Shown one piece after another: positions 6,219 through 10,714 of a stretch of 46,966 bases of DNA (positions are counted from its first letter, which is position 1; each line of letters begins with the position of its first letter). A program made the translations under genes and the position numbers. The notes below the pieces were generated by a model. That model saw only the letters and a list, made by a program, of their open reading frames with translations. It did not search any database and had not been told where the DNA came from. This stretch comes from an archaeon (GTDB lineage: Archaea > Iainarchaeota > Iainarchaeia > Iainarchaeales > DTGL01), in contig JAPDKC010000009.1 of assembly GCA_029258755.1 (NCBI GenBank), forward strand, positions 1 to 46,966, read 5' to 3'.

Positions 6219-6452
6219 ATGCCAAAGGTTATAACAATATCTGATGATGCATACAGGAAACTGAAGGAGATAAAGAAGGACCGTAGTTTTAGCAAGGCAA
6301 TATTATCTCTTATTGAGAGACATTCTGTTAAGAGATATGCAAAAAAAGACGTGTTAAATTGGATAAAAAAGGTTGAAAGGCAGCTTGGTCACAAAAGAAA
6401 GGAAAACATAAGCGAACGCGTGGATGAGATTCTTTATGGTGTAAAAAAATGA
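6219..6452 (+). CDS. vapB: Antitoxin, UPF0330/DUF217 (VapB) type
   Basis: A 77-aa protein. Its opening, MPKVITISDDAYRKLKEIK, followed by SFSKAILSLIERH, is typical of the archaeal DUF217/UPF0330 antitoxin family: a short DNA-binding N-terminus and a C-terminal tail that wraps around the partner toxin. It overlaps the following PIN-domain gene by 4 nt (ATGA), the classic antitoxin-toxin arrangement and a sign of translational coupling. It should bind and neutralise the PIN nuclease encoded next and repress its own promoter. The start follows a TATA box at leaderless spacing. Confidence 0.85.
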   Translation: MPKVITISDDAYRKLKEIKKDRSFSKAILSLIERHSVKRYAKKDVLNWIKKVERQLGHKRKENISERVDEILYGVKK

Positions 6453-6823
6453 AGGTTGCTGATACATCTTTCTTAGTTTCTCTTTTTATCCCAATGGATA
6501 AACACCACAAAGAAGCTGTAAAAATTTTTGAAAGCGAGGATAAGTTCTTTGTACCAGTAGATATAATAAAAGAAACGCTCACTGTTATTACATACAAATT
6601 AGGTTACGCTAAAATGAGGGAAGTATGGGAGTTTATTTCAAATTCGGAAGTATTCGAGATAGTTTCGGAAGATTTTAACAAGCTTGTTAATTTTTACCTT
6701 TCGCTCTCAAAAAAGATAGCTTTCTTTGATGCATGCGTAATTTATTTTTCGCTTATCGAAGGCCTAGAGCCAGCAAGTTTTGATAAACAGCTTCTTTCTG
6801 TGTGGAAGGCCATCAGAAGCTAG
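6449..6823 (+). CDS. vapC: PIN-domain ribonuclease toxin (VapC)
   Basis: A 124-aa single PIN domain of normal length. The acidic residues expected to bind Mg2+ are all present: D5 (VADTS), E42 (IKETLTV), D94 (FFDAC) and D112 (SFDKQL). VapC proteins cut tRNA or rRNA and stop translation when not held by their antitoxin. The gene starts inside the last codons of the VapB gene (ATGA overlap). All catalytic residues being intact suggests an active module, in contrast to the decayed VapC at 24543-24790. Confidence 0.88.
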   Translation: MKVADTSFLVSLFIPMDKHHKEAVKIFESEDKFFVPVDIIKETLTVITYKLGYAKMREVWEFISNSEVFEIVSEDFNKLVNFYLSLSKKIAFFDACVIYFSLIEGLEPASFDKQLLSVWKAIRS

Positions 6824-8089: not shown

Positions 8090-8647
8090 ATGAAAGCGCG
8101 AAGGACAAAAGCAGGAACTAAGCGCTTGCGAGCAGCAAAAAGAACTCGCAGGCAGAAAGTGATAGAAGAACGCGGCATAAGATATGAAGAGCTACCTATA
8201 GAAATTAAAAGGGTTGTTGATAAAATTAAGAAAGCAAGGGCTGGAAGAATAAGAGGGGCGGCTTTTGCAGGAGCAGGCGCAGCATATGATATGGCAAGTG
8301 CTCCTGGTTCAGAAAAGCATATAGGGGTCATAAGTGCGGCTATCTATGGTGGAATAGATTATCTGGCTTCAAATACTCAGATTAGAAAACACATGAAAAC
8401 CCTAGAGCGGCTTATAAGAGACTCGAATGATCCAAAAATAAGCGCCTTACGAGTAAAATACCCTTTCTTCTTGGTTGATGTACATGGCAATATTATTTTT
8501 ACTACCAAACAGAGAATTTTAGCTCTTTTTGGAAGATTGAGGGGCAGAACCATAAAAGGCGGTTTGCAAAGAGTTTTCCCATCACCAGAAGAAATTGTGA
8601 AGAAGCAGAGGAAAATAATTAGGAAATCAGGGCGTAAGGGGGTCTGA
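8090..8647 (+). CDS. Hypothetical basic protein
   Basis: A 185-aa protein of unknown family, starting 4 nt after the TreT-like gene, so probably in the same transcript. The first 26 residues are almost all Arg, Lys, Ala and Thr (RRTKAGTKRLRAAKRTRRQK). A Gly/Ala-rich stretch near residues 55-90 (AGRIRGAAFAGAGAAYDMA ... IGVISAAIYGGIDYLA) could be a glycine-zipper-like helix pair that associates with membranes. The C-terminal end is again basic (KKQRKIIRKSGRKG). Function not inferable. Confidence 0.7.
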   Translation: MKARRTKAGTKRLRAAKRTRRQKVIEERGIRYEELPIEIKRVVDKIKKARAGRIRGAAFAGAGAAYDMASAPGSEKHIGVISAAIYGGIDYLASNTQIRKHMKTLERLIRDSNDPKISALRVKYPFFLVDVHGNIIFTTKQRILALFGRLRGRTIKGGLQRVFPSPEEIVKKQRKIIRKSGRKGV

Positions 8648-8753: not shown

Positions 8754-8761
8754 TTTAAATA
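8754..8761 (+). promoter_or_regulatory. TATA box of the small RNA at 8780
   Basis: TTTAAATA preceded by AAAAGG (BRE-like purines) lies in a gap with no reading frame after it until 8952. Initiation would be expected near 8780-8786, exactly where the structured segment begins. Confidence 0.6.
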
Positions 8762-8779
8762 TAACCTTATGTACTATTT

Positions 8780-8873
8780 ATTATTACGCTCGAACTAGCT
8801 TGGTGAGCCTATCCCGTCTTCTCAGCTAGTTCGGCGCTTGCCCTTGGGAAGCTTGTCTTCCCCTCTCTTTTTT
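8780..8873 (+). ncRNA. Candidate structured small RNA (unknown family)
   Basis: The 8648-8951 gap has no credible coding frame but holds a strong fold. A long stem pairs CGC-U-CGAACTAGCT (8787-8800) with AGCTAGTTCG-GCG (8824-8836), 13 bp with one bulged U. Inside it GAG (8805-8807) can pair with CTC (8821-8823), leaving a one-sided UGGU bulge and a loop of about 13 nt. A second hairpin pairs GGGAAG (8846-8851) with CTTCCC (8857-8862), followed by a pyrimidine tract with TTTTTT at 8868-8873. A TATA box sits about 25 bp upstream. It is not a tRNA, and I see no box C/D or ACA motif that would make it a canonical snoRNA-like guide. The next gene (8952) has its own TATA-like element near 8911, so this is probably a separate unit. 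Start and end are estimates. Confidence 0.6.
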
Positions 8874-8951
8874 CTTATTTGTTTGTTGAGCAGCTTCAGG
8901 TACGCTAATTATAAAAAAGCTATCTTTCTTTTTTGATTAGGTGTTTTTGCT

Positions 8952-9314
8952 ATGCGCTGTGAGGTTTGTGGCAGGGAAGCAAAGCTTATGAGGGTAGAAA
9001 TTGAAGGAGCCGAGCTTCTTGTATGCAGCAAATGCGCTTCTTTGGGAAAAATCTTGCGCGATTCACAAGCGCCTAAGACAAGCAATATAAAATACGATTA
9101 TAAGCTTGAAGAACCTTTTGTTCTTGTTGAGAATTACGGCGAGCTCATAAGAAAGGCAAGAGAAAAGCTTGGCTTAACACGCGAGCAACTTGCAAAAAAG
9201 CTTTTCGAAAAGGAATCTGTTATTCAGCGCATAGAAGCAAATGAATTGGAGCCAAGCAACGAGCTTGTGTTAAAGCTTGAGAAAACACTTGGCATTACTC
9301 TCAGAGAGCAGTGA
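8952..9314 (+). CDS. Archaeal multiprotein bridging factor (aMBF1), Zn-ribbon plus HTH
   Basis: A 120-aa protein with the two-part layout of archaeal MBF1: an N-terminal zinc ribbon (C3, C6, C25, C28) and a C-terminal Cro/C1-type helix-turn-helix from about residue 62 to 118 (YGELIRKAREKLGLTREQLA ... ESVIQRIEANELEPS). aMBF1 binds the ribosome's small subunit in some archaea and its eukaryotic homologue is a transcription coactivator. An AGGTG site precedes the ATG. The site-2 protease gene overlaps or directly follows its stop, so the two are translationally coupled. Confidence 0.9.
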   Translation: MRCEVCGREAKLMRVEIEGAELLVCSKCASLGKILRDSQAPKTSNIKYDYKLEEPFVLVENYGELIRKAREKLGLTREQLAKKLFEKESVIQRIEANELEPSNELVLKLEKTLGITLREQ

Positions 9315-9319
9315 TAGTG

Positions 9320-10714
9320 ATGGATTTTTGGTTTATGCTTAATGCGATTATTCTTATTGCGATTTTTCTCTTTGGCTCAACATATATTTTGAAGAGGTTT
9401 CCCGGAGTAGAAACCCATTATGTTTATTCTATATGGTACAGTAAAAGATTCAAAAGGCTTATTGAAAGAGCAAAATTTCTTCAGCAACCAATAGAGTTTA
9501 TTGCAAAGCTCGGCCTAATTGTAGGCTTTGGCATATTTGCAAGCGATTTTTTATTCGGAAAAGGTAAAAGCATAGCGCAGCGCTTGGTTATAGCAGCAAT
9601 TACATCGATTGCGCTTTTTGCACTTTATACAGCGACTTTCGCGTATCCTTTTTCCATAGCCCCAATTACCAAAGATTATGCATCGCTTTTTGCTTTTGCC
9701 TTTTCGTTCTTTGGGATAGCTATTTTTGGAACACTTTTATTGCTTGTGAATTCATTTCACATAATCCAAAATGTATTTGTTGGCAAAGCGGCATGCCCAG
9801 GTGTGGCTCCTTTGATCCCGGGCGTGAAGATTCCAAAAGTACCTATTTTCATTCCTTGGTACGGTTGGCTGGCGCTGGCACTTGCTATAGTTGCTCACGA
9901 GGGAGCGCATGGCATAATGCTTTTGAAAAAAAAGCTCAAATTTAAAAGCGCAGGTATAATCTTGCTAGGGCTTTTTCCATTAGGCGCCTTTGTTAAGCCC
10001 GATGAAGAAGAATTGGAAAGAACAAGGCCTATAAAGGCCTTGCTTGTTTATTCCGCAGGCCCTGCCGCAAACCTCGCTGCCACGGTTCTTTTTTGGTTTT
10101 TAGGCATTGCATTCTTCTCAGCATTTTATTATCCAATGATGGAGGATTACAAACAAGCTTATATCTCCCTTGTAGAAAAGGTCGTGATAGAATCTGTTGA
10201 TGAAAGACTGCCTTATTGCGGAAATCCTAAAGCACCCGCTTACGGAATATTAAAACCGGGAATGGAAATAATTGCTGTAGATGGAACTAGAATAAGAAGC
10301 ACGCTGGATTTAAAAGAAGTTTTGGCTAAAAATCCTTTCAAAGAAAAGGTATTTGAGGTGAGGGATACTGACGGAAGTATAAAAAGATTCAAACTAAAGC
10401 CAGATCCAGAGCTAGGGCGATTTGGTATAAATGTCAGAGATGTTCTAAGGGAAGGTGCAAAAATTGATGAGAGACTGAAACAAGCATTAATAATTATCGC
10501 AAACATATACGGTTTTATTCTAATATGCTTCTTACTTTCTTTGGCGCTCGCTTTGTTCAATCTATTGCCTATAACTCCTTTAGATGGCGGAAGGATAGCA
10601 AGCATACTCTATTTCGGAAAGCTCTCCGCTAAAAAAAGAAAGAAGGTAGAGGAAGCCTTGCTTTATTTCTTCCTCGCAATAATGTTCGTTAATATATTGC
10701 CGTTTTTCGTGTAA
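9320..10714 (+). CDS. Site-2 protease family (M50) membrane protease with PDZ domain
   Basis: An intramembrane zinc metalloprotease of about 464 aa. Visible are the HExxH motif (AHEGAHG, H193/E194/H197 counting from the ATG) in a membrane helix, and the distal LDGGR motif (D422) that supplies the third zinc ligand. Between them is a PDZ-like soluble segment (about residues 235-385, AYGILKPGMEIIAVDGTRIRS). Several hydrophobic helices flank these. Family members cut membrane-bound regulators. The frame is also open from GTG at 9311, which overlaps the aMBF1 stop; I prefer the ATG at 9320, which has GTGAT just upstream. Confidence 0.9.
   Translation: MDFWFMLNAIILIAIFLFGSTYILKRFPGVETHYVYSIWYSKRFKRLIERAKFLQQPIEFIAKLGLIVGFGIFASDFLFGKGKSIAQRLVIAAITSIALFALYTATFAYPFSIAPITKDYASLFAFAFSFFGIAIFGTLLLLVNSFHIIQNVFVGKAACPGVAPLIPGVKIPKVPIFIPWYGWLALALAIVAHEGAHGIMLLKKKLKFKSAGIILLGLFPLGAFVKPDEEELERTRPIKALLVYSAGPAANLAATVLFWFLGIAFFSAFYYPMMEDYKQAYISLVEKVVIESVDERLPYCGNPKAPAYGILKPGMEIIAVDGTRIRSTLDLKEVLAKNPFKEKVFEVRDTDGSIKRFKLKPDPELGRFGINVRDVLREGAKIDERLKQALIIIANIYGFILICFLLSLALALFNLLPITPLDGGRIASILYFGKLSAKKRKKVEEALLYFFLAIMFVNILPFFV

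Follow-up and report, generated by a model that had tools for sequence, protein, structure and literature searches.

A conserved structured RNA of Iainarchaeales and a second RNA with a complementary, co-varying loop

Upstream of an mbf1 gene in the window (the whole stretch of 46,966 nt analysed here) lie a TATA box, two hairpins and a T-run, and the question raised by this locus is whether they delimit a genuine RNA. An earlier note had read them as a probable stand-alone structured RNA, and every element it relied on, i.e. the TATA box, the stem, the bulged U, the GGGAAG/CTTCCC hairpin and the T-run, is indeed present in the sequence at 8754–8873 (Table 1). We refer to this RNA as RNA A. 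Its stem consists of CGC/GCG, the bulged U8790 and CGAACUAGC(U), that is, 3 + 10 bp, with a large loop above. The ‘asymmetric UGGU bulge’ described earlier is no bulge; it is the start of a conserved loop, UUGGUGAGCCUAUCCC. A 4-bp pseudoknot (UGGU/ACCA) is possible within RNA A and is not kept in all families.

Table 1. RNA A and its 3′ neighbours in the window, with the basis of each assignment
Feature	Position	Strand	Basis
TATA box of RNA A, TTTAAATA	8754–8761	+	Sequence; kept in congeners (L002–L004); TATA-like in other A loci shown
RNA A, predicted transcript of ~88 nt	8785–8872	+	Both ends inferred, the 5′ end by spacing to the TATA box and the 3′ end by the T-run; fold; covariance match; no transcript data
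Hairpin P2 (conserved), CGAACUAGC (8791–8799) with GCUAGUUCG (8825–8833)	8791–8833	+	Pairing and two-sided changes
Loop core of RNA A, UUGGUGAGCCUAUCCC	8800–8815	+	Complementary to RNA B loop; pattern search; duplex tests
Hairpin P3, GGGAAG/CUUCCC, terminator-like	8846–8862	+	Sequence differs between families
T-run, probable transcription end of RNA A	8868–8873	+	Sequence; conserved in congeners
TATA-like box of mbf1 itself, AATTATAAAAA region	8909–8916	+	Sequence; congener alignment
mbf1, HTH_3 protein, multiprotein bridging factor 1-like	8952–9314	+	Pfam; 3′ neighbour of A in 17 A loci
M50 peptidase gene	9311–10714	+	Pfam PF02163; second conserved 3′ neighbour of A, 17 A loci

The predicted fold of 8780–8875 has an energy of –29.7 kcal/mol against a mean of –19.6 for shuffled sequences (z = –3.5; 2 of 200 shuffles were as good). 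By itself this is weak evidence, and the case for RNA A depends on conservation. A DNA search of 53 genomes revealed three congeners whose promoter, stem, loop, terminator hairpin and T-run are 87–88% identical to those of the window; in other families only the loop core, TGGTGAGCCTA[TA]CC, is still alike, within a different but equally paired stem. The covariance model, which matches RNA A of the window at 8787–8847, finds the element across the order. Since RNA A is conserved in congeners and recovered order-wide by the model, we take it as real: 8785–8872 is a genuine structured RNA, previously undescribed, and not a chance hairpin, as the earlier note had argued from the strength and placement of the stems.

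Loci of RNA A share a general layout, an archaeal TATA box followed by GAACUUAG-[UUGGUGAGCCUAUCCC]-n-CUAAGUUC, usually ACCAACUCUC, and a terminator hairpin. The loop core is far more conserved than the stem, of which only the upper 8–9 bp are conserved, and is likely the functional core of RNA A; the second hairpin, whose sequence is variable, resembles a terminator. When 75 genomes of the order were searched with the core pattern, 33 places in 31 genomes were found, with no match to the backward control; allowing two mismatches gave ~70 places in 53 genomes versus 4 control matches. Model R2, built for RNA A, has matches in 38 of the 75 genomes at E ≤ 0.1, of which ~30 are RNA A and the remainder mostly the second RNA described below read on the wrong strand, or chance; it has none in 12 genomes from other parts of the phylum. 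The organisms with the element belong to Ca. Diapherotrites / Iainarchaeales and include the complete genome GW2011_AR10, taken here to be G019; a look-up of the core also hit unrelated bacteria by chance.

Compensatory changes in the stem, the test that the earlier note had set, were found in relatives. When 13 sequences are aligned with plain MAFFT, pairing in the stem reaches 98% versus 43–55% when slid by one column; this alignment holds only one two-sided change, a level that 77 of 500 shuffles reach. On 27 covariance-model matches (25 distinct sequences) 98% of cells are likewise paired, two-sided changes occur in 3 of 8 pairs, and the covariation score is reached by none of 500 shuffles; this second alignment leans to the model. 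Within the window's genus the stem is one base shorter on both sides together, GAACUAG/CUAGUUC versus GAACUUAG/CUAAGUUC.

That RNA A matches no known class also held: Rfam 15 gives only a tRNA in the window above gathering cut-off, with weak sub-threshold matches at loci of both RNAs. Box C (RUGAUGA) and box D (CUGA) of C/D guide sRNAs are both absent from 8785–8872, and so is any ACA as expected of an H/ACA guide.

RNA A usually lies just 5′ of the mbf1 and M50-peptidase genes and, in 16 loci, 3′ of a divergent gene, presumably a flap endonuclease judging from its sequence (no Pfam run was made). Because mbf1 is the nearest 3′ gene in many families, RNA A might be a cis-acting mbf1 leader, a riboswitch or attenuator. 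Such a leader should always precede mbf1 and be co-transcribed with it, and RNA A does not fit this: mbf1 has a separate TATA box in the window, the two are up to 0.6–0.95 kb apart in G052 and G007, and RNA A still stands just before the M50 gene in two genomes for which the search gave no mbf1 ortholog, G019 and G022. We regard the leader reading as highly improbable. A stand-alone RNA with its own promoter and T-run is the right reading, as originally proposed, its transcription being inferred. For 22 of the 30 genomes covered, among them the complete G019 (families f4, f10, f14, f16, f17, f18, f20 and others), protein searches detected no mbf1 ortholog; this factor, as a rule conserved in archaea, has there either been lost or diverged strongly. 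A search for RNA A 5′ of mbf1 (6 genomes) or of the M50 gene (18 genomes), mostly in genomes without a known copy, gave no clear new RNA A and one uncertain candidate (G039).

Two other features of the window may be recorded. Just 5′ of RNA A, an ORF of 185 aa (8090–8647), rich in Lys and Arg and without a Pfam match, occupies the position of the flap-endonuclease-like gene of other families. At 6219–6823 a small ORF overlaps a PIN-domain gene (PIN by Pfam), resembling a VapBC-type toxin-antitoxin pair.

What the earlier note overlooked, together with the conserved loop of RNA A, is a second RNA complementary to it. This RNA B is structured, undescribed and present in most genomes of the order, and its most conserved part, GGGAUAGGCUCACCAA, is the reverse complement of the RNA A core. 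In the window's own genome (G000) it lies at G000:C1:98746-98791, within a locus of ~98680–98800 (L244; B loci are L215–L251). Its TATA box is on the strand opposite to the A-type reading of the core, and RNA B hence carries the reverse complement of the A loop. The strand assignment is supported by an excess of G.U over A.C cells (20 versus 4); TATA position and these counts together exclude RNA B as a plus-strand homologue of RNA A. Model R3 for type B, built from eleven rows of which two are poorly aligned, yields matches at E ≤ 0.3 in 49 of 75 genomes, a part of which are RNA A read on the wrong strand.

Near its 5′ end RNA B has a G-rich Shine-Dalgarno-like element (AGGAGGGAUC, GAGGUGGUUG or GGGGGGAUCC; a loose pattern detects it in 39 of 41 B loci), followed by an outer stem, H1, and a loop starting GGGAUAGGCUCACCAAGCUAA. 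All 8 pairs of H1 show two-sided changes among 34 sequences (score 0.69 versus 0.28 shuffled; 0 of 500 shuffles as high), in an alignment likewise fitted to the model. The loop usually contains an inner hairpin, and its two sides, as read by eye, vary in step: CCAA/UUGG, CCAG/CUGG, CCAU/AUGG, ACCGA/UCGGU, CCC/GGG. A CCUA/UAGG pseudoknot was also seen and is not kept in all families. We considered a coding role, as the conserved stretch reads I-G-S-P in one frame, and rejected it because the third codon positions are invariant and the frame is broken by stops; no conserved ORF was found after the Shine-Dalgarno-like element (G000 reads UUG UAA).

The place of RNA B is the same in 26 of 27 genomes examined. 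Upstream stand a divergent gene of ~180 aa and then an NFACT-domain gene; downstream is a convergent topoisomerase I gene. Pfam gives no match for this conserved, regulator-like protein of ~180 aa, and its resemblance to Lrp/AsnC regulators is weak (PDB 8q90, E = 0.003). Between its gene and RNA B, a loose pattern with a mismatch allowed picks out an inverted repeat like ATGTAA-N6-TTACAT at 16 of 41 loci (e.g. L216, L235 and L236, ~110–130 nt upstream of the B core); the divergently encoded Lrp-like regulator might use it as an operator.

Do the two loops pair? In 22 genomes holding both RNAs, the predicted energy of the isolated core duplex ranges from –26 to –41 kcal/mol, whereas shuffled B gives –13.5 on average. 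The mean for cognate pairs is –34.7 kcal/mol versus –32.0 when the partners come from different families; none of 20000 permutations was as good, a figure inflated by kinship, and the exact permutation of seven families (p = 0.0018) is fairer. At full length, the pair of the window's own genome gains –25.2 kcal/mol, which none of 200 shuffled loops matched (mean –13.4, best –23.0); that of G019 gains only –6.6 kcal/mol. Joint changes of both cores were observed in f14 (G019 and G032; CCUAU/AUAGG to CCUAA/UUAGG), in G022 of f17 (GAGCUAACCC with GGGUUAGGCUC) and in G040 of f20 (CGGGUGAGCC with GGCUCACCCGG). Covarying sites are mismatched in G026, G005 and, at one site (U against U), G040.

RNA B was found by searching both strands for the A core, a selection effect to be kept in mind. 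A chance origin of the match is nevertheless disfavoured, because backward controls were clean or nearly so and because the structure and neighbourhood of RNA B are independent of that search. The loops are thus complementary and co-evolving, and both RNAs are conserved and structured. A complementary stretch that is kept and covaries between species, as expected of an sRNA–sRNA pair, is present over the 22 genomes, with some mismatches remaining. Since the loops are reverse complements across much of the order, we consider mutual control by base pairing between RNA A and RNA B very probable; their pairing is well supported, while the direction of control, the targets and transcription are only inferred.

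The B core is still conserved in several families without detected RNA A, which means that pairing with RNA A is not its sole constraint. This would fit two independent, protein-binding RNAs that never meet and owe their complementary loops to inverted copying. Speaking against it, cognate pairs fit better than exchanged ones, the cores have changed jointly in f14, f17 and f20, and outside the core no stretch common to the two RNAs is visible, so that we consider it unlikely. The B octamer GGCUCACC is altered mainly where RNA A was not found (G002, G011, G028, G037, G066; a small sample), and also in G046 (GGCUCACU), which has RNA A. Variation next to the B core can also be explained by the inner hairpin of RNA B itself.

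Both RNAs occur widely in the order, and the duplex that they form with each other is long and imperfect, as it might be for the halves of a split housekeeping RNA such as RNase P RNA. Yet all 8 genomes tested have a separate RNase P RNA (SRP RNA was outside that search), and neither kind of locus matches Rfam at gathering score, nor convincingly below it. The split RNase P reading is largely refuted, and we give the idea of a split RNA almost no credence.

As an observation on the rRNA genes of these genomes, 16S and 23S lie on different contigs in G000 (C7 and C25), with RNase P RNA ~120 nt after the 23S gene, and are separated by ~140 kb in G009 (C1) and ~28 kb in G034 (C2). Pairing of the core with 16S or 23S rRNA was tried and rejected: no site is common to the genomes tested, and a near-identity in the window genome's own 16S is not conserved.

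Our preferred interpretation, which we hold to be probable, is that RNA A is a trans-encoded small RNA pairing loop to loop with RNA B, as its antisense or sponge partner. The exposed A loop would pair with the complementary loop of RNA B, encoded by a distant gene next to that of the Lrp-like regulator; by inference, the two would meet by loop–loop contact and extend to ~12–21 bp, and RNA A would take RNA B out of use. We favour RNA A as the sponge because the B core persists without detected A, so that RNA B seems otherwise used, and because a sponge copies the site of its partner's targets. What RNA B might act on is the least certain step and a guess. Its CUCACC resembles the 16S 3′ tail GGAUCACCUCC, identical in all seven genomes checked, and GGUGAG in RNA A resembles a Shine-Dalgarno sequence, which leads to the proposal that RNA B uses the same, anti-Shine-Dalgarno-like loop on ribosome-binding sites of mRNAs. 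It would then repress a site holding GGUGAGCC, and RNA A would relieve this repression. A search of 11 genomes with TGGTGAGCCTA for conserved message targets returned only RNA A, RNA B and one coding start (G023).

The neighbouring genes bear on this proposal. NFACT proteins are known ribosome quality-control factors. Mbf1 is probably ribosome-associated. In yeast it is a ribosome-stall factor (PMC6301793). As a link to the ribosome, the Mbf1 and NFACT neighbours are suggestive and not proof. A full translation-control circuit, with RNA B, controlled by an Lrp-like regulator, acting on ribosomes or on start sites and RNA A, often beside mbf1, titrating it via the Shine-Dalgarno-like loop, remains a speculative and rather doubtful extension. 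If true, it would to our knowledge be the first order-wide RNA–RNA regulatory pair described in DPANN archaea.

Hardly anything is known about regulatory RNA in the DPANN archaea, and a literature search combining Diapherotrites/DPANN with small or non-coding RNA (subscription papers outside its scope) revealed no title or abstract describing such a regulatory RNA. Here, two undescribed RNA families, each with a constant set of neighbouring genes throughout an order whose genomes are reduced, have matched loops. If the pairing is true, this is a rare case of both sRNA partners being proposed from comparative evidence ahead of experiment, and both RNAs are short enough for immediate in vitro pairing work.

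With its TATA box, T-run and conserved intergenic place, RNA A has what is expected of a stand-alone trans-encoded sRNA, transcription being inferred, and both the A and the B stem are conserved structures with compensatory changes. Methanosarcina sRNA162 and sRNA154 are trans-acting archaeal sRNAs that act on mRNAs. Like them, RNA A is short, stand-alone and structured, with a conserved single-stranded stretch for base pairing; unlike them, it has another small RNA as its best-supported partner, and Rfam reveals no sequence relation. CopA/CopT is a plasmid-type kissing-loop antisense pair from both strands of one locus. RNAs A and B are likewise two hairpins with complementary loops, able to start by loop contact, but their genes lie apart on the chromosome, and complementarity is confined to the core and its immediate surroundings. 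Bacterial sponge or anti-sRNA pairs (GcvB with SroC, the ChbBC spacer with ChiX) resemble ours in that one small RNA has a site complementary to another and is able to titrate it, titration by RNA A being inferred. RNAs A and B differ from these pairs in being archaeal, in that each stands alone with its own promoter, and in that the site of pairing is more strictly kept across the order than any other part of either RNA. We accordingly file RNA A as a trans-encoded sRNA with a dedicated RNA partner.
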